Source: Billgrantia ethanolica (GTDB lineage: Bacteria > Pseudomonadota > Gammaproteobacteria > Pseudomonadales > Halomonadaceae). Taken from it: a stretch of 64,000 bases of DNA. The DNA is taken from NCBI RefSeq assembly GCF_021404305.1, contig NZ_JABFTX010000001.1:1302001-1366000 (forward strand), read 5' to 3'. Below are positions 418 through 42,429 of this stretch, in pieces. Made by a program: the position numbers and the translations under genes. The number at the start of each line of letters is the position of its first letter. Position 1 is the first letter of the stretch. Under the pieces are notes generated by a model. That model was given only the letters and a program-made list of their open reading frames with translations. It had not been told where the DNA came from and ran no database searches.

Positions 418-3400
418 TCATTCTGGGTTCTTTGCGTACTGCTTCCACACAGCATGCACTTGCTCAAGCCTGACCCCATCCTTGACCTTGAAAAGCCCGG
501 CCGACTCTACACTTTCCTCGACATCCAAGAAATCGAGTACCGCGTGGTAGCTGGGACGATTCCAGAAATCATGGATAAAAATACGCGCCTTTTGGGAACC
601 TTCCAAGTGCTCCAGAATGTGCTGAATAGCCGCCATGGTACAAGCAACGCGGAAACGACCATCCACCAAGACAAGATCAAACATCTCTTCATGACTATGT
701 ATTGCCTGGCTATAGGCCGGAAACTTATCGGAATCCTTCATCGACACCGGATAGCCCCACGCTTTTGTGGGACCAATATCCACCGTTTCAATCCGACACT
801 TATCGCCGAGCTCGGCTTTCAAGGCCTCGACCCACTTGGCGTCGCTCTCGACACCATACACCGCCAATCCCTCACGGACTGCCCATACAGTGGATCCACC
901 CGAGCCAAACTCAAAATAGCGATTGGCCTGCCCAATCGCGCGCTTGAAAAGCGAACGCTCCGCATCAGACATGAAAGGCGCGTCAGGCACGTCGAACACT
1001 GGCTTCGCAGAAGATTCTTCGCCTTTGGCTTCGCCTCCAACCGCAGGAGATAAAATCCCCTCCTTACCCAAGTATTCTTGAGCCCTTTCTTCGTCGATGT
1101 CGGCTAATAGCGCATATGCCATATCCTTGACCTGGTAAACGGCATGCAACAAGAACGCCAGTTTGAGACGCTGCGCTGACTGCATACCATTCCTTCTCGC
1201 TCGTGTCGGAAGGAACAAGGCGAAGGCACCTTCAAGGTCCGTCGCCTGCCGCATGGCCTTCGGCACGCTGGCGGGAAAGTGACTGCGGTGCTGCAAGTGA
1301 TTGAAGCGATAAAAGCTGAATCCATGCTGGCTGGCCCAAGCCAAGACCTTGCTGAAGTCAGAGTTCGTGCACTCAGGACCAAACCCAACATAAACTTCAA
1401 CCAGCAAAGTATTCGCCAACGCTTTTGAAGCGTTCTGCAGAATTGACAAATTATCGCCAGCATCGCCCAGGCTCAGCAGGTCGATGTTGGGCAATCCCTG
1501 GATGGCATCAAGGGCTACACTAGGGATTGGCTCGGGCTCACCTTGTACTGAGCCTTCCACTGGGTCACTCGTCGCCTGCTCGCCGTGCCCACGGAGCGAA
1601 ACCGGCTGGCCATTGCCAAGGCTGGTGCCAGGGAAGTGCTGAATCTCACCATAAAGAGACAGAGGATCTACGCTTTCCAGACTGCTACGCGGGTCGAAGC
1701 TCAGCATGGCAATGCATTCAGTACCCAATAACTCTCTCGCATCAGGGCGCGAGGCCAACACCGCCCCGTTATCCACGGCAAGTGCCGGGCTATCGAGGCG
1801 CCAGTCGAAACCACCCTGCTGTCTTGCCATAACCAGCCTGACTGGCTGGTCTTCATCAGCGAAGCGAGCCATGCCAGTTTTGGTGAACGTCAAGGCCTCT
1901 GGTGCCTTGCCCTCACAATGCCGCTGCCAGATGGCGCGCAGCGCTGCCGTAAGGTGGTTGGCGAAACGAGGTCCATCACAAACGGGGGATTCCGTTAGGA
2001 TGGTGCGCAGTGCGGCACGGATAACGGCCAGGTTAGGCAGGTCGGCAGCAAGCTCCTTGGCACGCTTGCGGAAATCATCCCAGCTGTCCGTCACTAGCTC
2101 TGGGAGGCCGGCATTGACCAGATGCGATGCGCTATGGCGCCCGGCAAAAGTGGGGCCGACACGAGTGACTACCGGCACTCCCATCATCAGCGCCTCACAG
2201 GTGGTCAAGCCACCAGAATAGGGCCAGGTGTCCAAGGCGATGTCGATACGCTGGTAGGTAGCCATGAACTCCTGGTGCTGAGCCGGCCCTTCCATCAAGA
2301 GACGTTCCGCTTCGATGCCATGCCCTACCAGAATACCGGTAATCTTTTCTCGATAGCGCTCGCTTTCGAACTGTATTCCGCGAAGGAGCAGTTTGCTGTT
2401 GGGCACCTCCTTCAACAACTTAGCCCATTCCGCCAGCATCGGCGGTGACAGCTTGGCAGGATTGTTGAGGCAGCCAAAGGTAATATAGCCATTACTCAGC
2501 GCAGGGAGTGCACTGCAGGAAGGAGCGTGGCCGGGGATTTGATAGCAGATATAGTCGTCAGGAAGACGGATCAGTTTCTCCGTATACAGTCCGTCTACCC
2601 CCTCAGGCGTCTCGATGCTGTCGCTCAAGAGGTAGTCGAAACAGTTTAGTCCAGTCGTATTGATCAAGCTTCCTACCCACTTGACGATCAAGGGAGCAGG
2701 CTCACGGATCAAGGTATCGTAACGCGTCCCTTCACCCGCGCCATTCATGTCGATCAAAATATCGATAGCATCATCACGGATTTTTTTATCAAGCCGCCCT
2801 GCGCTTAGCCCTTCAACAATCTCCCAACGATGTACGACACCTTGTATTTCCCTAGCCAACTTATCCACGATCTGATTGGTACTGTAAACAATAAGTTCAA
2901 AATACTGACTAGGTAAATTCTTTAGCGCCGGCAAGATCATCTGTCCGACAGGATGCACCCTCAAGCCCCCCGAAAGCAGGCCAATACGCAACTTTTTTTT
3001 GGCATCTCTCAGGGTGCTGGCACGTTCTACAAAGGAGCCATGAGCGAAGCGCTCATTCCACTCCGTCGCCTTGGAAAAGAGATCTTCTGCGCTGTACATG
3101 GGGTTATAATGCGAAGCTACCAAGAGGTTACCATGCACTTTACCACTCTCTGGAGCCAGCTCCAATTCCTTGGCATAAAGCGCTTCCGCCTTATTATAAT
3201 CCCCCTCTTTTACGAATAGGGTCGCCATATGGTTATACACCCCGACACGCTTTGAATTGACGTGCAATAGGGTTTCCAATGTACGCATACACTCATCATG
3301 ATGCTTGAGTTGATCAAGGATACGAGACCGCCACAGCAGCGTCTCTTCATGACGAGAATCAATCATCATGGCCTTATCATTGACTTCAAGAGCCTTGCCA

Positions 3401-3822
3401 TTATCACCTATCTGGTGATAAGCACGACTCAACCAAGCCAGCGCCATGATATGGCCAGGCTGTGTTTCGAGAACATCACCGAGGACCTTGACCGCATTCC
3501 TCGCCCTGCCTGCCAGCACCTGGTATTGCGCCAGCTTGAGATGCTGACTGGGATCAAGTGCTACTGCCATTTCGACCACTTTGCCCATGGCTTCGCAGGC
3601 TGCATCCAGGCGCTCCAGACGCCCAAGCGCATTGGCCTTGAGCTCCCAGGCCTGAAGATTCTGGGGATGCCGCTCCAACATGGCTTCGGCCAGTCGTAGC
3701 GCCTTGACGTAGTCGCCAGCGGAGAAGGCCACATCGAAGGCATTCAACTGTGCCACCGGCAACGCAGAATTCGCTTGGGGAACGCGAGGCGCTGAACCTC
3801 GCCGAGCTTGTTTCTTGGACAT
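418..3822 (-). CDS. TPR / GT41 (OGT-like) glycosyltransferase with C-terminal methyltransferase-like regions; candidate flagellin glycosyltransferase
   Basis: 1134 residues. Residues about 25-245 are tetratricopeptide repeats. Residues about 270-640 match the SPINDLY/O-GlcNAc-transferase (GT41) catalytic region, with signatures such as LLSGGLRVHPVGQM, FGCLNNPAKLSP and WPYSGGLTTCEALMMGVPVV. GT41 enzymes transfer a sugar from a nucleotide sugar to Ser/Thr. The region around 700-860 (IDLLSLGDAGDNLSIL followed by LLVEVYV) resembles the C-terminal half of FkbM methyltransferases. The last 166 residues contain YFEFGSGGSTVWAV at about 969, like the glycine-rich SAM loop of a class I methyltransferase, then FDLVLVDGR. 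The gene lies directly downstream of fliC on the same strand, so flagellin is the likely acceptor by inference. It could also modify other surface proteins. Confidence 0.75.
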   Translation of the reverse strand: MSKKQARRGSAPRVPQANSALPVAQLNAFDVAFSAGDYVKALRLAEAMLERHPQNLQAWELKANALGRLERLDAACEAMGKVVEMAVALDPSQHLKLAQYQVLAGRARNAVKVLGDVLETQPGHIMALAWLSRAYHQIGDNGKALEVNDKAMMIDSRHEETLLWRSRILDQLKHHDECMRTLETLLHVNSKRVGVYNHMATLFVKEGDYNKAEALYAKELELAPESGKVHGNLLVASHYNPMYSAEDLFSKATEWNERFAHGSFVERASTLRDAKKKLRIGLLSGGLRVHPVGQMILPALKNLPSQYFELIVYSTNQIVDKLAREIQGVVHRWEIVEGLSAGRLDKKIRDDAIDILIDMNGAGEGTRYDTLIREPAPLIVKWVGSLINTTGLNCFDYLLSDSIETPEGVDGLYTEKLIRLPDDYICYQIPGHAPSCSALPALSNGYITFGCLNNPAKLSPPMLAEWAKLLKEVPNSKLLLRGIQFESERYREKITGILVGHGIEAERLLMEGPAQHQEFMATYQRIDIALDTWPYSGGLTTCEALMMGVPVVTRVGPTFAGRHSASHLVNAGLPELVTDSWDDFRKRAKELAADLPNLAVIRAALRTILTESPVCDGPRFANHLTAALRAIWQRHCEGKAPEALTFTKTGMARFADEDQPVRLVMARQQGGFDWRLDSPALAVDNGAVLASRPDARELLGTECIAMLSFDPRSSLESVDPLSLYGEIQHFPGTSLGNGQPVSLRGHGEQATSDPVEGSVQGEPEPIPSVALDAIQGLPNIDLLSLGDAGDNLSILQNASKALANTLLVEVYVGFGPECTNSDFSKVLAWASQHGFSFYRFNHLQHRSHFPASVPKAMRQATDLEGAFALFLPTRARRNGMQSAQRLKLAFLLHAVYQVKDMAYALLADIDEERAQEYLGKEGILSPAVGGEAKGEESSAKPVFDVPDAPFMSDAERSLFKRAIGQANRYFEFGSGGSTVWAVREGLAVYGVESDAKWVEALKAELGDKCRIETVDIGPTKAWGYPVSMKDSDKFPAYSQAIHSHEEMFDLVLVDGRFRVACTMAAIQHILEHLEGSQKARIFIHDFWNRPSYHAVLDFLDVEESVESAGLFKVKDGVRLEQVHAVWKQYAKNPE

Positions 3823-3969
3823 GGCCAGGACACCTTGGCAGGAAAGAGAAATGATAGCGGGCAGGATAGCGTGCCGTGCACACCGGGATATGCAAGATAA
3901 AGGCTCTCCCCGCTACCCTTTTTGCCTCTTAGGTACCTACGCTGCTCGCTAATCGACTCTACAACGAAG

Positions 3970-3995
3970 CGAGGCTGGCCAATTGGCCAGCCTCG
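3970..3995 (-). terminator. Perfect hairpin after fliC
   Basis: An 11-bp perfect inverted repeat (arms 3970-3980 and 3985-3995, AATT loop) sits 47 bases downstream of the fliC stop. On the minus strand it is followed by CTTCGTTG, only moderately U-rich. It is probably the fliC terminator or an mRNA 3' stabiliser, and it would separate fliC from the glycosyltransferase gene. Confidence 0.65.
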
Positions 3996-4041
3996 AAGGG
4001 GGGGGTTGCATGGAGCAATCGGCCCGATACTGCGACTTTGA

Positions 4042-4860
4042 TTAACCCAGCAGAGAAAGTACCGACTGCGGGGTCTGGTTGGCCTGGGCCAGCATGGAGG
4101 TACCGGCCTGCTGCAGGATGTTGGCGCGGGTCATATTGGAGACTTCGACCGCGTAGTCGGCATCTTCGATGCGCGAGCGGGCCTCGGTCAGGTTGGTGAT
4201 GTTGGTGGTCAGGTTCTCGATCACCGAGTCGAAGCGGTTCAGGGTCGCACCCAGGGTGGCACGCTGGTCGTCGATGTCCTGCAGGGCTTCATCGATAGCG
4301 TCAATAGCAGACTGAGCAGCTGCGAAGTTGCTAACGCTAAGGGCATTGACGCTCAGGTCGGTGGCTGTCATCGATACCGTATCAACCTCGATTGCGTCGG
4401 CATCTTCGGTGTTGGCACCTACCTGAATGTTCAGCGTAGCTTCTGTGCTGAGCAGAGCAGTACCGTTGAAGGTGGTCGCTTCGGCGATACGAGTGATCTC
4501 CTCGACCCGCTCGTCGATTTCCAGTTGGATGGAAGAGCGGTCTTCCGCAGAGAGGGTATCGTTGGCACCCTGGACCGCCAGCTCACGGATACGCTGCAGG
4601 TTGTCGCTGATCTGGTTCAGGCCGCCTTCCATGGTCTGCACCAGGGAGATGCCGTCGTTGGCGTTACGCTGTGCCTGCTGCATGCCCTTGATCTGGGCGG
4701 TCATGCGGTTGGCGATAGCCTGGCCGGCGGCGTCATCGGCAGCGCTGTTGATGCGCAGGCCGGATGAGAGACGCTCTTGCGCCTTCGCCAGAGCGCTCTG
4801 AGAAGTCTTCAGGTTGTTCTGACCGATCAGGGCGGTAATGTTGGTGTTGATCACGGACAT
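4042..4860 (-). CDS. fliC: Flagellin
   Basis: 272 residues, a short flagellin. The N-terminal D0/D1 region begins [17 protein letters not shown] and continues with the canonical [20 protein letters not shown] segment. The C-terminal D1/D0 region ends [18 protein letters not shown]. The surface-exposed central part (about 140-195) is reduced and Ser/Thr-rich, which leaves possible O-glycosylation sites. Flagellin is exported by the flagellar type III system and polymerises into the filament. AAGGAA lies at good distance before the ATG. A sigma-28-type promoter lies about 110 bases upstream and a hairpin follows the gene. No second flagellin is present in the window. Confidence 0.97.
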
Positions 4861-5134: not shown

Positions 5135-6502
5135 TTACCTTTTTCTACCGAGCTGGGCATTCATGATGTCGAACTGCTGAGAGAGATAGGCACTCATCGA
5201 GTTCATCTGGGCCATCATCATGTCAAGCTGACCGAACTGCCTGCGGTAGCGCTCTATCGAACGGTCGATCGTTCGCTCCATTCGCTCGAAGCGGTCCTTC
5301 AAGCTCTCGATCCGGGTTTCAGAACTGGTAATCGAGCTCTTGATCAGCCCATCGTCACCCAGAAACCGCTTCATCGAGTCCTCCAATCGACCGGCCAGAC
5401 CCGCTTCCTTGCTGTCACCCGCAAAGAAATCCGCCACTGCCTGCTGGTTGGTGGCTATCGCTTCATCGAGCTTGCTTTCATCCAGCTCCAGGCGGCCATT
5501 GGGGCGCAGCGAAATGCCTAACTGCGACATCATCGTGATATCGCCGCCAGGTACGATATCCGTGAGGTCGCGACTCAAACGTGACTCGATGGAGCGTATT
5601 ACCCTGTCACCTATCAGCTCACCCGCCGAGGTAGAGTCGGTGCCTACTGCCGTCATCCGCCCGATGGTGGACTTCATCTCGTTGTATGCGGAAACGAAGC
5701 CCTGTATGGCTTCCTTCAGCGACTCGGTATCGCGCTGGACCGTGACGCCAAGCGTCTTGCCGGCTGAATCCGCACTCAGCTCCAGCGTCACGCCCTGAAT
5801 GGCGCCTTCAACCCGGTTGGTGGCGCTGGTGATGGTGATACCGTTGATATTGAGCTCGGCATCACGCCCCGCCTGACGGGCAGCAGTATCTTCAGCCAGG
5901 GCGCCCGGATCGGACAAGCCGGCAAAGCTGACGCCCGTTACGCCGGCATCGACGCCCGACTCACGCGACGAGAGCACCAGTCGATGCCCTTGCCCATCGA
6001 AGATGATGGAGGCATTCACCCCTGCATCGGCATCGGCGTTGATGGCGTTACGCATGTCAGCAAGGGTAGCGCCTTCGTCAAAGGTCACCGTCCTGGTGGT
6101 GCCATCGCCGAAGCTCAGCTCGAGGGAGGCGTTGGGCCCAGCAAGCGCCGCACTGGAATCCGTGACACGGGTAGTGGCCACACTACCGGCCCGTGCGGTA
6201 TTCAGCACCTCGACCTCGTAATTGCCAGGCGTCGCGGTGGCGCTTGCCGTTGCCGTCATGCCATCGCCACGCACCTGGGTCGTCAGCCCCTGGTAGAGCT
6301 TGGGATCGTTGAGCTTGGCAGTAGCATCCTGGAACTTGTTCAGCGCCGACTGTAGCCGTCCGTACGCCGAAATCTTGGCCTGTTCCTGAGTCCGCTGCGC
6401 CACGATCGGCTGCAGCTTCTGGCGCTCTGCGGCGCGCAGCTGGTCAAGAAGTCCTGTGAGATCGAGGCCGGAGCCTACGCCAAGCGCTGATATCGAAGCC
6501 AT
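5135..6502 (-). CDS. fliD: Flagellar filament cap protein FliD (paralogue 1)
   Basis: 455 residues. The N-terminus MASISALGVGSGLDLTGLLD is the typical FliD start, and the C-terminal region is heptad-like, ending LSQQFDIMNAQLGRKR. FliD pentamers cap the growing filament and fold incoming flagellin; in several species they also act in adhesion. A second fliD of nearly identical length lies directly upstream on the same strand, and each copy has its own sigma-28-type promoter. The central surface regions of the two proteins differ clearly while both ends are conserved. No fliS or fliT chaperone gene follows in the window. Confidence 0.95.
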   Translation of the reverse strand: MASISALGVGSGLDLTGLLDQLRAAERQKLQPIVAQRTQEQAKISAYGRLQSALNKFQDATAKLNDPKLYQGLTTQVRGDGMTATASATATPGNYEVEVLNTARAGSVATTRVTDSSAALAGPNASLELSFGDGTTRTVTFDEGATLADMRNAINADADAGVNASIIFDGQGHRLVLSSRESGVDAGVTGVSFAGLSDPGALAEDTAARQAGRDAELNINGITITSATNRVEGAIQGVTLELSADSAGKTLGVTVQRDTESLKEAIQGFVSAYNEMKSTIGRMTAVGTDSTSAGELIGDRVIRSIESRLSRDLTDIVPGGDITMMSQLGISLRPNGRLELDESKLDEAIATNQQAVADFFAGDSKEAGLAGRLEDSMKRFLGDDGLIKSSITSSETRIESLKDRFERMERTIDRSIERYRRQFGQLDMMMAQMNSMSAYLSQQFDIMNAQLGRKR

Positions 6503-6543
6503 CTTGGTTCACTTCCCTGAGTGATATGACATGAGTAATGACC

Positions 6544-6570
6544 TTATCGGCAGCTGCACGAGGAACTTTA
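6544..6570 (-). promoter_or_regulatory. Sigma-28 promoter of fliD paralogue 1
   Basis: Minus strand: TAAAGTTC (6570-6563), 11-base spacer, GCCGATAA (6551-6544). The -10 is a perfect FliA consensus and the -35 matches 7 of 8. The promoter lies in the 100-base gap between the two fliD genes. Confidence 0.93.
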
Positions 6571-6602
6571 GCCCGGCACGCATTCTGTTTCCAAACCGGT
6601 TT

Positions 6603-7973
6603 TTACTGCCCCGACATACCACCACCCATTTGCGCATCGAGCATGCCGAGCTGCTGCGTGAGGTAAGCGCTGGTCTGGTTCATTTGCGCCAACATGGCAT
6701 CGAGTTGGCCGAACTGGGTCTGGTAACGGGCAATGGTCGTGTCGATGCGCTGCTCCATGAGCTGATAGCGATCGCCGAGGCTCTCGATGCGGTTTTCCGC
6801 ACCGCTCACCGCACTTTCCAATGCCCCATCTTCATCGAGCAGTTGAGACAGGGTCGCGTCCAGTCGCCCAGCCAGGCCATCGGCCTCGTCAGCTCCTAAG
6901 AAGAACGCTCCCACGGCTGCCGGACTTTCTGCCAGCGCAGCATCCAGCTTCTGCTCATCCAGCTCCAACCTACCGTCTACACTCAGCGAGATGCCGAGTT
7001 CGTCCAGCCGCTGGTACCCCTCCTCACCGCCCAACTCATTGCCCAGGTCGCTACGAAGTCGAGACTCGATGATTCGAACCGTGCTGTCGCCGATGAGCTC
7101 ACCTGCCTGACCCTCTTCACCATTGAAGGCCGTAAGGCGCCCTGCGGTGGATTTCAACTCATTGTAGGCGGTGATGAAGCTGTCGATTCCTTCGCGCGCG
7201 GGCTGAGTATCCTCCTCGACGAGCAGGCTGCTCTGGCCGGTCGACTGGAGATCCAGCACCACCCCTTGTATCGCGTCGTCCACCTGATTGGTGGCACTCT
7301 CGATCGAGATACCGTTCACGCTAAAGGTGGCATTCTGCCCGGCTTGTGCGATCGTAACATCGGTCAGCGTGGCATCGCTTGCCATCTCGGCAAAATCGGT
7401 AGCGAGCAGGGTGGCGTCACTGCCGCTCTGCTTCGACATCAATGCGAGTCGGTAGCCGCTTCCGTCATTGATGACCGACGCGTTGACTGCTGCCTGCGGG
7501 TCCGCGTTGATGGCGTCTCGCACGTCCTGCAGCGTGCTTCCCGCCTCGATCGTCACACGCTGGTTAAGCTCAGCGTCGGCAAAGGTGAGATTGAGTTCGC
7601 TGTCAGCTTCCGTCAGAACCGTATCCAGGCCGTCGACCCGCTGGGTGGCAATGCTACCCGCCGTGGCAAGGGTATCGACGCTGACGTCATACCGTCCCGG
7701 GCTGGCTTCGCCATCCGCCGCTGCCTGCACGGCATCGCCGCTGATGGAAGTGGATAGACTCTGGTAAAGGGCATTCTCGTTGAGCGCCTGGGTGGCATCA
7801 TGGAACGCAGAGAGCGCGCCCTTCAGCTCACCGTAAGCGGATATCTTTACCTGTTGGCTCTCGATCTGCTGCCCGATGGGCTCGAGCTTGCTGCGTTCGG
7901 CTACGTAGAGTTGGTCGAGAAGTCCGTTGAGGTCGAGCCCGGAGCCGATGCCGAGTGAAGAAATGCTGGCCAT
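6603..7973 (-). CDS. fliD2: Flagellar filament cap protein FliD (paralogue 2)
   Basis: 456 residues, beginning MASISSLGIGSGLDLNGLLD and ending in a FliD-type C-terminal helix region (LTQQLGMLDAQM). It is clearly paralogous to the downstream fliD along its whole length. The middle is more acidic and diverged, which suggests an old duplication or recruitment, not a recent repeat. The role should be the filament cap. Whether the two make mixed caps, act at different stages or cap different filaments cannot be told from sequence. A private sigma-28-type promoter lies upstream. Confidence 0.93.
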   Translation of the reverse strand: MASISSLGIGSGLDLNGLLDQLYVAERSKLEPIGQQIESQQVKISAYGELKGALSAFHDATQALNENALYQSLSTSISGDAVQAAADGEASPGRYDVSVDTLATAGSIATQRVDGLDTVLTEADSELNLTFADAELNQRVTIEAGSTLQDVRDAINADPQAAVNASVINDGSGYRLALMSKQSGSDATLLATDFAEMASDATLTDVTIAQAGQNATFSVNGISIESATNQVDDAIQGVVLDLQSTGQSSLLVEEDTQPAREGIDSFITAYNELKSTAGRLTAFNGEEGQAGELIGDSTVRIIESRLRSDLGNELGGEEGYQRLDELGISLSVDGRLELDEQKLDAALAESPAAVGAFFLGADEADGLAGRLDATLSQLLDEDGALESAVSGAENRIESLGDRYQLMEQRIDTTIARYQTQFGQLDAMLAQMNQTSAYLTQQLGMLDAQMGGGMSGQ

Positions 7974-10431: not shown

Positions 10432-12954
10432 TCAGCTGGTACTTTCGGGTAATCCGCTGCGTGACATCAGGTAGCGGCTGGCAAAGAGATCTGCCGGCAC
10501 CGCTCGGCCACTGAGATAGCCCTGGATCAGCTCGACCCCGTGACGCCCGAGAATCTCGCGCTGAGTCTCGGTTTCGACTCCCACGGCGGCCAGACGCAGC
10601 TCCATTTCACGTGCCAGCCCCGCCACGGCAGCGACGATAGCGGCACTGCCTTTCTGGCCGCTGTCCAGCCGCTGCACGAAACGCCGATCGATCTTCAACA
10701 TGGTGATGGGCAACTCATGCAGGTAGCCGAGCGCAGCATAGCCGGTGCCGAAGTCGTTGATGGCGACATCCCCTGCCAGGCGTCGCAGGCGTTTGAGCAC
10801 CACGGCGGCCTGCTGAGGTTTCTCGAGTAGGGTGCGTTCGGCGATCTCGAAGCCCAGCAGCCCGGGCTGCAGATTATGCTGCTTTAGCTTGGTCGCTACC
10901 CTTACGGGCAGGTCGGTCTGCCAGAACTGACGGGCGGAAAGATTGATGCTGATGGGTAGCGGCGCGGCACCGACGCCATTCCATGCGACCAGTTGGGCGC
11001 AGACCTGCTCCAGCATATATTCGTCCAACTGCGGCAGCAGCCCCGCACGCTCGACCAGCGTCATGATATCGACCGGCGGCACGCTGCCCAGCAACGGATG
11101 ATGCCAGCGCAACAGGGCCTCGGCACCGTACAGCCAGCCGCCTTCACGCTCGAAGATGGGCTGATAGTGCAGCTGCAAGCCTTCACCCGTGATGAAGGCA
11201 TCCTGCAAGGCCTTCTCGAGCGCTCGCTGGCGGTCGTCCTGCAGGTTCATCTCGTTGCGGTAGAGGCGATAGCCGTTGCGGCCTTCCTCCTTGGCCCGAT
11301 ACATTGCCACGTCGGCATTGTGCACCAGAGCTTCCGCTGTGGTCGCATCGTCCGGGTAGAGACTGATACCCAGGCTGCAGCCGATGCGAAACTCCTGGCC
11401 TTCGATCACGCAGGGCTCGCCCACGGCTTCCACCAGGCGACGCGCAATTCGGGTCACCTCGTCGACCTCCTCGAGATCGGGGAGCAGCACCAGGAACTCG
11501 TCACCGCCCAGGCGAGCCAGGGTGTCGTCTTCACGCAGACGCAGTTGCAGCCGTTCTGACATCATCACCAGCAGCTCGTCACCAAAGGCGTGGCCGAGCG
11601 CATCGTTGACCTCCTTGAAGTGATCGAGGTCGACGAAGATCACCGCCAGGCGGGTCTGATTGCGGTGGGCATGCCGAATCGCCAGCTCCAGGCGATCCTC
11701 CAGCAGGCGACGGTTGGGCAGGCCGGTGAGGGCATCGTAATAAGCCAGCTTGCGGATGCGCTCTTCGTTCTCACGCATATGGGTGATATCGCTGAACAAC
11801 GCCGCGTAGTGGGTCACCGCTCCGCTGTCGTCGGTGATCGCCGTGATGGTCAGCATTTCTAGATAGAGCTCGCCGCTCTTGCGCCGATTCCAGATCTCAC
11901 CCCGCCAGTAACCGCTGCGCTTCAATGCATCCCACATCTGGCCGTAGAAGGCAGCATCATGACGGCCCGATGAGAGAATCTCCGGGGTTCTGCCAATCGC
12001 TTCTTCGGCGGTATAACCCGTCATGTGGGTAAAGGCACGATTGACGAATTCGATCCGGTTGCCTGGGTCGGTAATGATGATGCCTTCCAGCGAGGAGTCG
12101 ATCACCCGCTCGGCCAGCTGCAGATTCTCTCGCGACTTGGCAAGCGCCTGATCACGCTGCTCCAGCGCCTCACGCAGATCCTGCATGTAAAGGTACTCGG
12201 CACTGGCCAGCATATCGCGAAAGCCCAGCAGCCCGACTACCTCATCGCTGTCGTCGAGCACCGCGAGATGGCGTACCCGGTGGTTCATCAACAGGTCACG
12301 GGCGGCAATCAGGGTATCGTCCTGATAAACCGTCAACAGTGGCCTGCTGGCCAGCCCGTCGATGGGCGTATTGCCCGGGTGGCGCGCCACGAACCGCACC
12401 AGATCGCGTTCCGTGAGAATGCCCAGCTCACCGTTCTCGCACTTCACTACCACGGCATCGCATTCGGATAGCCGCATCGAACGGGCCGCCTGGGCCAACA
12501 GCTGCGTGCCGTCGAGCACCAGAGCACGCTGACGCATCGCCGCCTGCACCTCGCGCAGACGCAGGTAGGGTTCGAGCCCCTGGTTCAGGGCGACATCCGT
12601 CTGCGACAGGATGCCGACCGGCGTCCCGGCATCATCGATTACCAGGAAGTGGCGCCGCCGTTCGGCGTTGAAGCGCAGCGCCGCTTCGCTGATCGACGTG
12701 GTGAGGTGCAGACTCGCTACCGGTCGGCTCATGACCTCCGAGACCGGCTGACGTACGGCATCCGGGTCGGCAAAATTGACGGCCAGCGCATCGTGCTCGG
12801 TCCAGATACCCAGCGGCTGTCCGGCCTTTACCACGATGATGGAGCTGCATTGACGCGCCGCCATGCGTTCTGCCGCCATCCACAGCGGCGTCTCGGGCTC
12901 GCAGGTGAGAAGCCCGGTCTGCATGATGCGTTCGATGGGTAGCTCTTGGCTCAT
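10432..12954 (-). CDS. Four-CBS, PAS, GGDEF, EAL protein (c-di-GMP signalling)
   Basis: 840 residues: two CBS pairs (about 10-135 and 140-265), PAS (about 285-395), GGDEF (about 410-570), EAL (about 585-830). The GGDEF motif (483-487) is intact and preceded by an RxxD inhibitory site (REDD), so diguanylate cyclase activity is plausible. The EAL domain keeps EAL at 612 and NLSARQF. However, the DDFGTG metal motif reads NDFGTG (Asn733), and the usual AEGVE reads AVGVE, so phosphodiesterase activity is doubtful. CBS pairs often bind adenine nucleotides or SAM, suggesting energy-state input. No membrane segment is seen. It lies between the MotB-like gene and flaG, a context that fits motility control. 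Confidence 0.9.
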   Translation of the reverse strand: MSQELPIERIMQTGLLTCEPETPLWMAAERMAARQCSSIIVVKAGQPLGIWTEHDALAVNFADPDAVRQPVSEVMSRPVASLHLTTSISEAALRFNAERRRHFLVIDDAGTPVGILSQTDVALNQGLEPYLRLREVQAAMRQRALVLDGTQLLAQAARSMRLSECDAVVVKCENGELGILTERDLVRFVARHPGNTPIDGLASRPLLTVYQDDTLIAARDLLMNHRVRHLAVLDDSDEVVGLLGFRDMLASAEYLYMQDLREALEQRDQALAKSRENLQLAERVIDSSLEGIIITDPGNRIEFVNRAFTHMTGYTAEEAIGRTPEILSSGRHDAAFYGQMWDALKRSGYWRGEIWNRRKSGELYLEMLTITAITDDSGAVTHYAALFSDITHMRENEERIRKLAYYDALTGLPNRRLLEDRLELAIRHAHRNQTRLAVIFVDLDHFKEVNDALGHAFGDELLVMMSERLQLRLREDDTLARLGGDEFLVLLPDLEEVDEVTRIARRLVEAVGEPCVIEGQEFRIGCSLGISLYPDDATTAEALVHNADVAMYRAKEEGRNGYRLYRNEMNLQDDRQRALEKALQDAFITGEGLQLHYQPIFEREGGWLYGAEALLRWHHPLLGSVPPVDIMTLVERAGLLPQLDEYMLEQVCAQLVAWNGVGAAPLPISINLSARQFWQTDLPVRVATKLKQHNLQPGLLGFEIAERTLLEKPQQAAVVLKRLRRLAGDVAINDFGTGYAALGYLHELPITMLKIDRRFVQRLDSGQKGSAAIVAAVAGLAREMELRLAAVGVETETQREILGRHGVELIQGYLSGRAVPADLFASRYLMSRSGLPESTS

Positions 12955-37420: not shown

Positions 37421-37447
37421 TAAAGTTATCCCTCGCCCTGCCGATAG
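37421..37447 (+). promoter_or_regulatory. Sigma-28 promoter of flgMN
   Basis: TAAAGTTA (37421-37428), 11-base spacer, GCCGATAG (37440-37447). Both boxes match 7 of 8 positions of the FliA consensus. It lies 34 bases before the flgM start, giving autoregulated production of the anti-sigma factor. Confidence 0.93.
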
Positions 37448-37480: not shown

Positions 37481-37762
37481 GTGAAGATCAACAGCCAAAA
37501 CCCCCTGACTCGCCCGACCCAGACGCAACCGCGCGAGGAGGCTCAACCGGTCAAGGGCGCTACCCCCTCGGGGCAGCAGGAGCCCGGGCCTTCGGCCGCT
37601 ACGCATCTGAGCCAGAAGGCTACCGATGCCTCCCGCGATATCGACAAGGCGCGAGTCGAGGAGATTCGTGAAGCCATCCGCGAGGGTCGCCTGGAAATCC
37701 GCGCTGAGCGCATTGCCGATTCCCTTATCGAATCGCTGTCCGCCGAGAGCCGCAAGGCATGA
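37481..37762 (+). CDS. flgM: Anti-sigma-28 factor FlgM
   Basis: 93 residues with a GTG start preceded by GAGG. The C-terminal helices match the FlgM sigma-28-binding region: RVEEIREAIREGRLEIRAER, then IADSLIESL. The N-terminal half is disordered, as expected for an exported protein. FlgM holds sigma-28 inactive until the hook is complete and FlgM is secreted. It overlaps flgN by ATGA. Confidence 0.95.
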   Translation: MKINSQNPLTRPTQTQPREEAQPVKGATPSGQQEPGPSAATHLSQKATDASRDIDKARVEEIREAIREGRLEIRAERIADSLIESLSAESRKA

Positions 37763-38208
37763 GCCTGGCAAAGCTTCTCAAGGAACAGCAGCAGCGTCTG
37801 AGTGAGTTCACCGAACTGCTCATGCGCGAACGAGCGCTGCTGGCCAGCGCTGACATCGAAAGCGAGACCCTCACCGAGGTTGCCCAGCGCAAGCAGGGGC
37901 TGCTGGCCCGCCTGGAAGCGAGCGAAAAGCTGCGCCAAGGCGTTCAGCAGCGCCTGGGCTATGCCGATGGTGCCGCGGGAGCCCATCAGGCCGCGCTGGA
38001 TGCAGGCTGCGAAGAGGCTTGGATGCAGACCCTGGAAATGACTCGCGAAGCTCAGCGCCTCAATACGCTGAACGGCGAGCTCGTTGCCTTGCGCATGGAG
38101 CAGAACACACGCCTGCTCGACTTCATTCACCAGGCGGCAGAGAAGACTGTGTACCGCGCCAGCGGTCGTGTCGCGGCGCAGACAGGACGCATCAACGCTT
38201 CGGTCTGA
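37759..38208 (+). CDS. flgN: Flagellar export chaperone FlgN
   Basis: 149 residues, helical, starting MSLAKLLKEQQQRLSEFTEL with many heptads. FlgN is the export chaperone for FlgK and FlgL. The call rests on size, helical character and the fixed flgM-flgN order with a 4-base overlap. Confidence 0.92.
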   Translation: MSLAKLLKEQQQRLSEFTELLMRERALLASADIESETLTEVAQRKQGLLARLEASEKLRQGVQQRLGYADGAAGAHQAALDAGCEEAWMQTLEMTREAQRLNTLNGELVALRMEQNTRLLDFIHQAAEKTVYRASGRVAAQTGRINASV

Positions 38209-38401: not shown

Positions 38402-40435
38402 TCACCACAAACTGTCGATCAGGTCGTCGTCCGACGCGGTGACCACCACGGCGTTGCGACCGTCGGCCTTGGCCTGGTAGCTGGCCTGATCGGCTCGCGC
38501 GAACACGGATTCGATAGCGTCATCGCCCTCCCGCAGTGACGTGACGCCCATGCTCAGCGTGATACTGTAGGTCTTGCCGGCATTGCTGACGGTGACCTCG
38601 GAAACGGCACGCCGCAGAGATTCGGCAATTTCTTCCGCCTGCTTGAGCGTGCAGCTGGGTAGCAGCACGGCAAACTCATCCCCACCCTGGCGGGCGACAT
38701 GGTCGCTGCGCCGCACCTCCCACGCCACCACCTGAGCGACGCGCCGCAGCATCTCGTCACCCAGGGCGTGGCCGCCTTCGTCATTGATCGGCTTGAAGTG
38801 GTCGAGGTCGAACAGAATCAGCACGGATGGCGTGCCGGTCTTGGAGTATTCGGCCAGCGCCTCCTCCAGGCGCCGCTCGAACCCGCGGCGATTGAGCAGC
38901 CCCGTCAGCGGATCGTGCTCGGCCTCCCAGCGCTGCAAAGCCTCCTGCTGCCGCCGTTCGGTAATGTCCTTGACCATGCCGACGAAGCCCAGCGGTTGGT
39001 CGTTGCCCAGCACCTGGCTGGCGTGCACCTCGACCCACAGCGTCACACCGTCGGGATGCAGGAAGCGAAGCTGGCGTACGAAGTCGCTGCCGGTGGCCAA
39101 GGTGTAACGCCACATGTCCTCGGTGCCACGCCGGTCGTCGGGGTGGATTCGCTCCCACCAGTCGCGGGCCTCATGCGTCTGTTCGAGACCGAGCAGCTCG
39201 AGCAGTGCCGGGTTCAGATAATTGATTCGCCCGCTCAGATCCGCCACGAACATGCCGATGGGCGTCGAGCCGAGCACGGCATCGAGAAAAGCTTGCCGAT
39301 CGCGAAGATGCTCCAAGGCGGCAAGTCGCTCATGCTCGAGTCGGTTGAAGCTGCCGGCTACCTGTCGCAACTCGTGCATGCTGGTAGAGAGCTCGAGATA
39401 GCGCCGCTCTCCCGCACCGACCTGCGCAATCTGCCGTTCCAGTCGATGCAGCGGTAGCAGCAGCCTCCTGACCAACCAGCGCATGGTGATGAGCAGCAAG
39501 ATGGCCAGCGCCAGCCAGGCCCACCACAAGCGTGCCAGAAAGTCGCCCAACGGGGCCTGTACCTGTGTCTGAGGAATGGCCACCTTGACGATCCAGTTTG
39601 CCGGCCAGATCTGACGATAAGCCATCAGGGTCGGAATCCCCTCTTCGCTCGATGCAATGGCTTCTCCCTGCCAGCCGTCCAGCGCCTGTTGCAGGGTGTC
39701 AGTTTCGGCGGCACTCCCCAACGACCGACCGAGAGAAGAAACCCGGGCGCGGCGAGGTTGAAAGAGCAGCTCACCAGTGGCCGTGAAGACAGACACATAG
39801 CCGGCATCCCCTAGCCTGATCTCCTCCAGACGGCGGAACATGCCACCATGGGTGAGGTTGATCATCCCCCCCACCGTGCCATTGAAGATACCCTGATCGT
39901 CGAAACGAGGAACCAGCATCAGTACCAGCGAGTCGCCGCTGGCCCTGCCGATGAAAGGTTGGCTCACATAGGGCCAGGGCGAATGACGCAGCATGCGGAA
40001 ATACTCCGTCGCTGTGGTTTCCAGCCCTGCACGCCCCGGCACGATGGGCCAATCGGCCACGACACGACCCTCGGCATCGGTAACCATGAGCCCTTCGAAC
40101 CATTCCAGTAATACCTGGGCATTCTCCAGCCGAGCAGTTATCTCGCTTGCCGGCACATTACGCACCCCCTGCTCCAGTCGCTCCAACGCGCGCAGCCTGC
40201 GCTCGACCTGCTCGGAGAGATCGCCGGCGATCAGCTGGGACTCATAACGCAGATGCGCCAGATTGGCATCGTCGACGAGCCCCTTGCCGAACTGCCAGGC
40301 CAGCAGCAGTACCAGCCCGACGATGACCAGCCAGGTCATTGCCAGGCCCGCCAGCAGGCGTCCCTGTAGCGAGCAGATCGAGCGAGCCAGGACCCCGATA
40401 CGCGCCGGTAAGTGCAAGAAGATATCCTCTGTCAA
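38402..40435 (-). CDS. Membrane diguanylate cyclase: dCACHE, PAS, GGDEF
   Basis: 677 residues. One membrane helix is at about 28-50 and another at about 305-325, flanking a periplasmic dCACHE-like sensor (about 52-300). A PAS domain (about 375-490) and a GGDEF domain (about 510-670) follow. The GGDEF motif at 584-588 is intact and an RxxD inhibitory site (RRSD, 575-578) precedes it, so it should make c-di-GMP with product inhibition. No EAL domain. A sigma-28-type promoter lies upstream, and the divergent neighbour is another c-di-GMP-type protein with its own sigma-28 promoter, so expression with late flagellar genes is likely. Confidence 0.93.
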   Translation of the reverse strand: MTEDIFLHLPARIGVLARSICSLQGRLLAGLAMTWLVIVGLVLLLAWQFGKGLVDDANLAHLRYESQLIAGDLSEQVERRLRALERLEQGVRNVPASEITARLENAQVLLEWFEGLMVTDAEGRVVADWPIVPGRAGLETTATEYFRMLRHSPWPYVSQPFIGRASGDSLVLMLVPRFDDQGIFNGTVGGMINLTHGGMFRRLEEIRLGDAGYVSVFTATGELLFQPRRARVSSLGRSLGSAAETDTLQQALDGWQGEAIASSEEGIPTLMAYRQIWPANWIVKVAIPQTQVQAPLGDFLARLWWAWLALAILLLITMRWLVRRLLLPLHRLERQIAQVGAGERRYLELSTSMHELRQVAGSFNRLEHERLAALEHLRDRQAFLDAVLGSTPIGMFVADLSGRINYLNPALLELLGLEQTHEARDWWERIHPDDRRGTEDMWRYTLATGSDFVRQLRFLHPDGVTLWVEVHASQVLGNDQPLGFVGMVKDITERRQQEALQRWEAEHDPLTGLLNRRGFERRLEEALAEYSKTGTPSVLILFDLDHFKPINDEGGHALGDEMLRRVAQVVAWEVRRSDHVARQGGDEFAVLLPSCTLKQAEEIAESLRRAVSEVTVSNAGKTYSITLSMGVTSLREGDDAIESVFARADQASYQAKADGRNAVVVTASDDDLIDSLW

Positions 40436-40524
40436 GGTGGTTGGCGCCCGCCGAGCAAGTCAGACAGGACATGCCGCCTCCCCTGGCAGCCCCGCGCATC
40501 GGGAAACAGATTTCCATTGCTCTG

Positions 40525-40551
40525 TTATCGGCACATCCAAAGCGAACTTGA
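40525..40551 (-). promoter_or_regulatory. Sigma-28-type promoter of the dCACHE-GGDEF gene
   Basis: Minus strand: TCAAGTTC (40551-40544), 11-base spacer, GCCGATAA (40532-40525). The -10 is a perfect FliA consensus and the -35 matches 6 of 8. It lies about 90 bases before the start codon. Confidence 0.82.
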
Positions 40552-40619
40552 GCATCTTGGGAAGATCGAACATGTTACCCAAAGATTGAATTGCCTTCTC
40601 AACGGAAGGCCTAACGCCC

Positions 40620-40646
40620 TCAAGTTCAGCCAACTTTGGCCGATAG
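40620..40646 (+). promoter_or_regulatory. Sigma-28-type promoter of the degenerate GGDEF-EAL gene
   Basis: TCAAGTTC (40620-40627), 11-base spacer, GCCGATAG (40639-40646). It has the same -35 sequence as the divergent promoter at 40525-40551. It lies 37 bases before the start codon. Confidence 0.8.
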
Positions 40647-40683
40647 AATACGCAGGCAGGAATACATCGGTGACAGCATATAA

Positions 40684-42429
40684 ATGAACCATCACGGCAA
40701 CCGCCCACCGGGCAAGCAGGCCACGCTCCTAGCCCAGCACCCCGCCCGGCTGGTGAAAGATGCCTTCGAGCAGAGCCAGACCGGCATGGTCATCACCGAT
40801 GCCGAGGGGCGCATCATGATGGTCAACGACGCTTTCTGCCGTATTGCCGGCAGCGACAGGGCGGAGACGACCGGCTGGCCGATCGAGGACTTTTTCGTTT
40901 CGCTGCACCCATTCTCAGGTCTCCCCGGCTCGGGAGACGACACCCACAACACGGCTCTCTCCTGGCAGCAGGAGGTACTGTGCCGCCAGAGCGACGGCGA
41001 GTCGGTGCCGGTTCTGATGCTGGTCGACACTCTGCAAGACGACCAACATGTCCCACGCGGCCGACTCTACTCCTTCGTGCGCTTCACCACTCCGGGTGGA
41101 GAGCTGCTGGACGAGCGACACTGGGTACACATCGACCCGATGACCGGACTGCCCAACTGGTTGCTGCTTCGGGATCGCCTCGATCACGCTCTGGCCCAAG
41201 CCGAGCGTGCCGACACCACGCTCGCCTTGCTGTTCATCGATATCGACCGCTTCAAGGCGGTCAATGATGCAGTGGGCCATATCGAGGGGGACCGCATACT
41301 CGGCGATATCGCCAGACGGCTGCAGCAGGTGGTGCGCAGCAAGGATACGCTCGCCCGGCTCGGCAGCGACCAATTCGTGGTACTGCTGGAGAAGGACGGC
41401 ACCGCCGAGGCAGCCCAGGTCGTGGCTGAGCGGCTGCAGGAAGCCCTGGAGCCGCCTTTCAACAGCGGGGATCGATACCTGCTGCTGACTTCCTCTATCG
41501 GCGTAGCGCTCTACCCCGGCGATGCCGAGGATCTCGAGACACTGGTCCACGCTGCCCGTGGCGCCGTTTTCACGGCACGCAAGAAGGGCCCAGGACGGCT
41601 GGCTTTCGTCGATCACCGTCTGACTTCGCGACTGAAAGAGAAGTACCGGCTCGAGAGCCAGTTGAGCGAAGCCATCCACCTGCCGGACCGGCACTTCGCG
41701 CTGCACTACCAGCCCGAGTTCGATCGCAACTCGCTGCGCTGCACCGGTATGGAAGGCACGCTGCGCTGGAAGCACCCCGAACGCTGGCAGCAGCCACCAA
41801 GCCATTACCTCGACGCGATCGCACGGCTGGGGCTCGGCGTACGCCTCAACCGCTGGATGATTCGGGCAATCATTGCCGACCATCGCCAGTGGAGCGACGA
41901 CGCTTCGCCGCTGGCCCAACTGCCGATCTCACTTTACCTGTGCGAGGCACACCTGGCACAGGACACTTTCGACAGTCGTCCCCTGGACCACTTTCTGAGA
42001 CATCTGGACACGCCGTCATTCGAGTGGCTGACTCTCAAGGTGCCCGCTCAGGGCCTAGGCAGCGATCTGGACAGAGCCACTCACATGCTCAAGCGGCTCG
42101 AGCAGCTCGGCATTCGCCTTGCCGTCGAGGAGCTCGGCAGCACTCCGGTGGATCTTGCCTGGCTGTCGCGTCTGCCTTTCCACAAAGCGACCGTCGACGC
42201 ACAGCTGACACGTGCACATCGCGATGGAAGACGCTTGGTTGAGGCATCGTGCCGCATGCTCAACTCCCTGGGCATCGAGCCCGTGATCGTTGGTATAGAT
42301 GACGAAAAGGTGGCAGCCGACATGGAAGCTACCTCCGCTCGTCTGGTCCAGGGTGATCTGTACTGCCCAGCCTTGAGCGCCAAGGCACTAACCGCATGGC
42401 TCGACGAACACCAGCCCCCCGAGGAGTGA
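40684..42429 (+). CDS. PAS-GGDEF-EAL protein with both catalytic motifs degenerate; probable c-di-GMP receptor or motility regulator
   Basis: 581 residues: PAS (about 18-130), GGDEF-like (about 150-310), EAL-like (about 325-575), no membrane helix. The GGDEF motif reads GSDQF at 227-231, but the RxxD inhibitory site (RSKD, 218-221) is intact. In the EAL region EAL reads EGT (357-359), NLS is lost, DDFGTG reads EELGST, KID is lost, and AEGVE is lost. It is therefore unlikely to make or break c-di-GMP, and it could bind it at the I-site. The sigma-28-type promoter and the divergent active cyclase suggest a flagellar or chemotaxis role. The ribosome binding site before the ATG is weak. Confidence 0.85.
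   Translation: MNHHGNRPPGKQATLLAQHPARLVKDAFEQSQTGMVITDAEGRIMMVNDAFCRIAGSDRAETTGWPIEDFFVSLHPFSGLPGSGDDTHNTALSWQQEVLCRQSDGESVPVLMLVDTLQDDQHVPRGRLYSFVRFTTPGGELLDERHWVHIDPMTGLPNWLLLRDRLDHALAQAERADTTLALLFIDIDRFKAVNDAVGHIEGDRILGDIARRLQQVVRSKDTLARLGSDQFVVLLEKDGTAEAAQVVAERLQEALEPPFNSGDRYLLLTSSIGVALYPGDAEDLETLVHAARGAVFTARKKGPGRLAFVDHRLTSRLKEKYRLESQLSEAIHLPDRHFALHYQPEFDRNSLRCTGMEGTLRWKHPERWQQPPSHYLDAIARLGLGVRLNRWMIRAIIADHRQWSDDASPLAQLPISLYLCEAHLAQDTFDSRPLDHFLRHLDTPSFEWLTLKVPAQGLGSDLDRATHMLKRLEQLGIRLAVEELGSTPVDLAWLSRLPFHKATVDAQLTRAHRDGRRLVEASCRMLNSLGIEPVIVGIDDEKVAADMEATSARLVQGDLYCPALSAKALTAWLDEHQPPEE

Follow-up and report, generated by a model that had tools for sequence, protein, structure and literature searches.

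A flagellum-linked family of degenerate GGDEF-EAL proteins in Halomonadaceae and its possible role in c-di-GMP reception

In the salt-loving bacterium Billgrantia ethanolica, a gene for a GGDEF-EAL protein with decayed catalytic motifs lies beside flgM and flgN, two flagellar genes, and this raises the question of what such a protein does at this place. The window analysed is a stretch of 64,000 nt (contig NZ_JABFTX010000001.1, positions 1,302,001 to 1,366,000; all coordinates below are those of the window unless another stretch is named). In this window flgM, encoding the anti-sigma-28 factor (37481..37762, plus strand; Pfam FlgM), overlaps flgN (37759..38208, plus strand; Pfam FlgN), which we used as synteny marker, and a divergent gene pair sits between flgN and an amidase gene. 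The plus-strand gene of this pair (40684..42429), here named degEAL, encodes a protein of 581 amino acids (aa) that matches the PAS, GGDEF and EAL models of Pfam and scores 873 bits with the family profile described below. The minus-strand gene (38402..40435) encodes a diguanylate cyclase with cache-HAMP-PAS-GGDEF architecture according to Pfam, dCache_1 (36.8 of 45 bits) and HAMP (24.6 of 25 bits) falling below the cut-off. We find that degEAL belongs to a family of degenerate GGDEF-EAL proteins that is real, conserved and tied to the flagellum. With about even confidence we favour the reading that degEAL would be a late-flagellar receptor of cyclic di-guanosine monophosphate (c-di-GMP), expressed as a class-3 gene of the sigma factor FliA (sigma-28), working via its I-site and descended from a PAS-GGDEF-EAL enzyme.

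The motifs listed in the initial annotation were all present on reading the sequence. The cyclase keeps GGDEF and an RxxD-type I-site (RRSD). In degEAL, GSDQF (residues 227-231; 41362..41376) occupies the GGDEF position, EGT (residues 357-359; 41752..41760) the EAL position and RSKD (R218-D221; 41335..41346) the I-site, with the spacing RSKD-x5-GSDQF followed by EGT, which places the RxxD motif five residues before the A-site motif. GSDQF does not conform to the GG(D/E)EF motif of active diguanylate cyclases. From nine RocR-type catalytic and metal positions of EAL domains only E357 and Q556 are left and seven are lost. That degEAL is catalytically dead, as described earlier, is nearly certain in the EAL part. 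In the GGDEF part it is likely, with the reservation that D186, K191, N194 and D229 are retained. In a gapless alignment R218 and D221 fall on PleD R359 and D362; R250 shares with PleD R390 only the A-E-R context, and there the automatic alignment is shifted by one residue. No residue was assigned to PleD R313. In PleD, R359 and D362 together with R390 form one subunit's part of the I-site (PMC7288161; literature is cited here from excerpts of the papers). An AlphaFold2 model of degEAL (mean predicted local distance difference test score 82, predicted template modelling score 0.61) showed nothing unusual and matches MorA and other GGDEF-EAL structures.

Both genes are preceded by putative FliA-dependent promoters. 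The site of the cyclase gene, TCAAGTTC-N11-GCCGATAA (40525..40551, minus strand, read 40551-40525), and that of degEAL, TCAAGTTC-N11-GCCGATAG (40620..40646, plus strand), were found by a consensus scan and by an exact genome pattern; each has a spacer of 11 bases and reaches the scan maximum of 15, with a scan consensus that was fixed partly after the sites had been seen. Ten first-order shuffles of the 64-kb window gave five sites at score 13 and none higher. The matched promoters proposed for the intergenic gap were thus recovered; the length of 248 bases given for this gap presupposes TTG 40435 as the start of the cyclase; it becomes 263 bases with the alternative start TTG 40420 (672 aa), which lies behind AGAGG and fits at least as well. 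Further FliA-type sites precede flgM (TAAAGTTA-N11-GCCGATAG, 37421..37447, plus strand, ahead of flgMN; consensus scan and exact pattern), flgK, two fliD genes and the flagellin gene. The exact pattern TMAAGTY-N12-GCCGATA has 11 matches in the 4.57-Mb genome and none in the reversed control. Nine of these fall inside one 77-kb stretch that includes the flagellar genes of the window, flhD, fliS/fliT and fliA; one lies 43 kb further right, where no flagellar gene was recognised by eye, and one on another contig. FliA itself is encoded in the genome (L184:3837-4544; 310.6 bits versus a cut-off of 201), and E. coli FliA sites share this form, for example before flgKL, flgMN, ycgR and yhjH (PMC4183435). 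Site scores and clustering near flagellar genes agree with the earlier assignment of both genes to late-flagellar, class-3 promoters, and FliA dependence of their transcription is predicted on this basis.

We searched 201 Halomonadaceae genomes, with 51 genomes sampled from the genus of the window (at least 90% complete). A family profile was built from the first 21 relatives, and scoring was limited to the top six candidates of each genome. This gave 43 places in 42 genomes with at least 436 bits, the next match being at 365 bits (paralogues), and 59 distinct members were collected in total. Named relatives with similar proteins, B. desiderata (91% identity to degEAL) and B. aerodenitrificans (90%), put the window inside Billgrantia or adjacent to it. 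Mis-scored orthology for the family as a whole is ruled out by the gap in the profile scores and by seven outgroup paralogues, which split off with a support of 100. Within the genus of the window, the family is present in all 32 flgN-positive genomes and in none of the 19 flgN-negative ones (Fisher p 2e-14, uncorrected for relatedness). In 31 of the 32 genomes flgN is on the same contig at a distance of no more than 7.5 kb; in the remaining one (G006) a contig end lies between. These counts bear out the proposed conservation of degEAL next to flgMN in flagellated relatives. Many flgN genomes lack the family, since flgN occurs in 164 of the 201 genomes and the family in 42. No description of the flgN-linked family was found among the hits listed from an open-licence literature library, which is no proof of absence; in PMC5907407, on chemosensory pathways of Halomonas, flgM, flgN and EAL go unmentioned as judged by term counts.

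Of forty regions retrieved, five (L098 to L102; L098 shortened by a contig end) lay outside the family and served as controls. Three arrangements were seen. The Billgrantia-type layout (17 genomes of the genus, including G006) has flgN, the cyclase gene on the minus strand and degEAL on the plus strand; the cyclase beside degEAL was seen directly in 16 of these and across a contig break in G006. The Halomonas layout (15 genomes of the genus) has degEAL running towards flgN without an adjoining cyclase of this type, and in two of these genomes (G028, G157) 7-8 kb of other DNA precede flgN. In ten genomes of four other GTDB genus groups, whose named records are Litchfieldella (two groups), Franzmannia and Aidingimonas, degEAL is found elsewhere and a divergent cyclase of the same type adjoins it. 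For three members (L004, L007, L011) flgN was unseen, as the fetched stretch or the contig ended first.

The promoter sites follow these arrangements. Among the matches listed, a site of at least 13 is found at the position of the degEAL promoter in 17 of 17 Billgrantia-type loci, and a site of at least 13.5 at the position of the cyclase promoter in 16 of 17 (exception L067). Of the 48 family members from Billgrantia and Halomonas, 44 have a FliA-type site of at least 11.5 in the 250 bp upstream, compared with 1 of 11 members of the Litchfieldella group (best score 12) and 1.7% of shuffles; the distances are blurred by start codons that were guessed for several members (L130, L018, L083). The ten genomes of the other genus groups have no convincing FliA-type site upstream of degEAL (best score 12). 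Chance promoters are ruled out by the shuffles, the family-wide upstream sites and the exact genome pattern.

A tree of the 59 members and seven paralogues, calculated by a quick method with support from the Shimodaira-Hasegawa-like approximate likelihood ratio test only, suggests how the family may have arisen. One Aidingimonas copy with all nine EAL positions stands at its base, followed by the Litchfieldella group, in which GGDEF is intact and EAL residues are lost, and then by a clade of Billgrantia and Halomonas (support 99); in this clade every member for which the fetched DNA extends far enough has flgN nearby. Motifs were listed for 58 of the 59 members, as two L093 rows shared one name, whereas residue counts used all 59. 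Billgrantia members have GGDEF in three cases, GGDQF in six and GSDQF in fifteen, the fifteen forming one clade; in the Halomonas members the GGDEF motif is gone, and most of the metal and substrate residues are gone too. Decay is complementary: Billgrantia has lost nearly all of the EAL pocket and kept much of the GGDEF pocket, and Halomonas has lost the GGDEF pocket and kept much of the EAL pocket. The order suggested for the family is decay of the EAL domain, then a move beside flgN behind FliA sites, then decay of the GGDEF A-site, which by parsimony would have been lost twice, in Halomonas and in Billgrantia. Aidingimonas lacisalsi (L093:5025-8214, L125) carries a tandem family pair, one EAL-intact and one degenerate, both beside a cyclase, which represents a natural before-and-after pair.

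Retention of an I-site in a protein with decayed catalytic motifs, as pointed out in the initial annotation, extends to the whole family. R218 is found in 58 of 59 members, D221 in 59 of 59 and R250 in 58 of 59, and the I-site is among 39 residues that occur in at least 58 of the 59. The favoured receptor function would then proceed as follows. FlgM leaves the cell once the hook is finished, and FliA would turn on degEAL together with flagellin and caps. The protein probably makes no c-di-GMP and almost certainly breaks none. C-di-GMP would bind to the GGDEF I-site (R218, D221, probably R250) and alter the contact of degEAL with a flagellar target, which may be the motor, the export/FlgN side, FlhDC or a cyclase. 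We infer c-di-GMP binding, the direction of its effect, the target and the cyclase as supplier; as a sensor, degEAL would probably adjust swimming.

Several findings weigh against this reading. The basal placement of the Aidingimonas copy involves long branches and was flagged as unsure by the program. In L083, a member beside flgN, neither I-site arginine is left, and this protein accounts for the single loss of each. It also belongs, with L019, L082 and L130, to the four of 48 Billgrantia and Halomonas members whose upstream score is below 11.5; L019 and L082 sit 7 kb from flgN, and the start codon of L130 is a guess. RxxD is common, being present by our reading in 21 of 29 other GGDEF domains of this genome (30 of its 44 GGDEF matches were read, one being degEAL itself), and of the 154 GGDEF columns in the Halomonas clade, 31 equal or exceed R218 in conservation. 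Because of this, fold or dimerisation could explain part of the I-site conservation. The GGDEF domain of the window protein may moreover still bind GTP.

In its wider form the proposal is a flagellum-dedicated receptor class, seen here in Halomonadaceae only. It would have developed in steps from a bifunctional enzyme by decay of the EAL site, FliA control beside flgMN and two independent decays of the GGDEF site, with the I-site kept as sensor and with FliA also driving a cyclase in Billgrantia. We put this forward tentatively, with somewhat less than even confidence. If true, it would trace how a c-di-GMP enzyme becomes a sensor devoted to the flagellum; since named living species represent intermediate stages, each step is open to test. 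It would also place a cyclase behind sigma-28 promoters, where phosphodiesterases have been reported elsewhere: FliA-linked phosphodiesterases are described in E. coli and P. putida (PMC4183435, PMC5300878), whereas the enzyme at this position in Billgrantia is of opposite sign.

The divergent cyclase is probably one local source of c-di-GMP in Billgrantia. The earlier proposal of a sender-receiver pair is less secure than that of the receptor. FliA-type sites precede both genes, and a related cyclase adjoins the family gene, there without a FliA site, in the ten genomes of other genera; on the other side, the divergent cyclase is absent in 15 of the 32 flgN-positive genomes of the genus, and the adjacent cyclases do not form one clade. 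In a tree of 49 rows, made after removal of duplicates, of two second copies (L087 9985, L122 8743) and of L141 with its long branch, the adjacent cyclases of Billgrantia and of the Litchfieldella group did not group together (approximately unbiased test, p 3e-14), and the result was the same with L141 kept (50 rows). A single ancestral cyclase-receptor pair is thus unsupported; one ancestral pairing may have been followed by duplication of the cyclase elsewhere. We regard a dedicated pair of cyclase and degEAL as doubtful, because degEAL persists without a cyclase neighbour in Halomonas and because long matches to the cyclase (E <1e-100) occur in 143 of the 201 genomes by our count. One region of Litchfieldella type (L170, genome G079) has the neighbourhood and the cyclase and no room for degEAL between them, possibly an empty or lost site.

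The same evidence bears on another possible function of degEAL, in which it would serve cyclases as a regulatory partner instead of acting as a receptor by itself. Pairing of its dead GGDEF domain with that of the divergent cyclase, or of paralogues, could damp or localise their activity; in E. coli, degenerate GGDEF domains pair with active ones (PMC5635695). The related cyclase in the Billgrantia-type loci and in 10 of 10 Litchfieldella-, Franzmannia- and Aidingimonas-group genomes would fit this, as would Halomonas L141, apparently outside the 201 genomes, in which a 43% identical cyclase lies about 1 kb upstream of degEAL on the same strand; the widespread cyclase matches are in line with it too. 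The 15 flgN-positive genomes without a divergent cyclase and the split of the adjacent cyclases into two groups argue against it, and we consider this function rather unlikely.

FlhD splits in the genus exactly as the family does, occurring in the same 32 of 51 genomes, which would suit a protein-binding regulator that has lost c-di-GMP sensing, for example a brake on FlhDC like YdiV/STM1344. The likeness lies in a degenerate EAL domain tied to flagellar control, and Billgrantia members, like most of those from Halomonas, carry a motif RPLDxFLR in their decayed EAL domain. YdiV/STM1344 has EAL only, whereas degEAL has PAS and GGDEF domains in addition. STM1344 and STM1697 bind FlhD and reportedly do not bind c-di-GMP (PMC10100727). 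For degEAL, the retained I-site arginine (58/59) and aspartate (59/59) would be unexpected without a ligand. A brake expressed by FliA would act only after the cascade has run, and FlhD is found in 161 of the 201 genomes, mostly without the family; we judge such a brake unlikely. Residual activity as a weak cyclase, or GTP sensing via the GGDEF domain, is least probable: D186, K191, N194 and D229 are intact in 24 of 24 Billgrantia members and three of these keep GGDEF, but Halomonas relatives at the same place near flgN have lost most of these residues, and both substitutions, E to Q and G to S, have become fixed in 15 members including that of the window.

LapD, FimX and CsrD are known proteins in which both domains are degenerate and the role is non-enzymatic, and the degenerate GGDEF and EAL domains of degEAL resemble them in this. 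It scores far below the NCBIfam cut-offs for LapD (58.9 of 1020 bits) and CsrD (57.1 of 663 bits), and differs from all three by the decayed EAL pocket of the Billgrantia protein. MorA, PA0575 (RmcA), PA0861 and DosP are its best matches in sequence and structure among solved structures and share the GGDEF-EAL fold, but degEAL has lost most of the EAL catalytic residues that such enzymes use. E. coli CdgI also combines a degenerate A-site with an intact I-site, and it binds c-di-GMP (PMC5635695); its N-terminal domain is common to DgcT/DgcX, whereas degEAL is a flagellum-linked PAS-GGDEF-EAL protein. Pseudomonas flgZ is a c-di-GMP receptor gene behind flgMN, and its expression drops in a fliA mutant (PMC3913639). 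Like this FlgZ/YcgR-type gene, degEAL lies beside flgMN, appears to be influenced by FliA and would encode a receptor. It differs in lacking a PilZ domain (Pfam), so that the ligand site would be the GGDEF I-site, and in gene order, being on the strand opposite to flgN in Halomonas and behind a promoter of its own in Billgrantia.

YcgR-type proteins (PF07317) gave no match in any of the 51 genomes of the genus and matched in 20 of the 201 genomes, all from other genera; PF12945 gave no match in 37 of 37 genomes of the genus. Replacement of a missing YcgR by degEAL was considered and withdrawn, as the own genome has four PilZ matches, one of them in a 563-aa PilZ + HD_5 protein encoded in the flagellar region beside fliS/fliT. 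Its gene (L180:6715-8406) lies 62 bases behind a gene for a 1353-aa protein (L180:8469-12530), with which it probably forms an operon, 1.5 to 7.3 kb left of the window. The 1353-aa protein is a PAS-GGDEF-EAL protein with intact-looking EAL motifs, and its gene is near fliS, fliT and flhD. A FliA-type site (score 14.5) overlaps the first codons of this gene as called from GTG; for the site to act as its promoter, translation would have to begin further downstream. FliA may thus also control a phosphodiesterase and a PilZ protein. With a phosphodiesterase gene that has a FliA-type site and is followed by a PilZ gene, degEAL and the cyclase would therefore form an extra layer and not a replacement of YcgR. 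Near fliA, a 419-aa HDOD protein (L184:2481-3740) has a weak EAL remnant below the Pfam cut-off and is possibly a further degenerate EAL protein.

Further genes of the window were noted. At the other end of the flagellar cluster, beside a motB-like gene, an 840-aa CBS-PAS-GGDEF-EAL protein is encoded (10432-12954). In Halomonas getboli and a relative (L075, L076, L143) a second GGDEF-EAL gene, whose product is about 40% identical to this protein, lies divergently about 1.1 kb from degEAL and replaces the cyclase. The two fliD genes are in tandem (5135-7973), with a perfect FliA-type site before the downstream copy (5135-6502) and a site of score 13 before the other. A gene for a 1134-aa protein with TPR and a family-41 glycosyltransferase domain (418-4860) adjoins the flagellin gene and perhaps encodes a flagellin glycosyltransferase.

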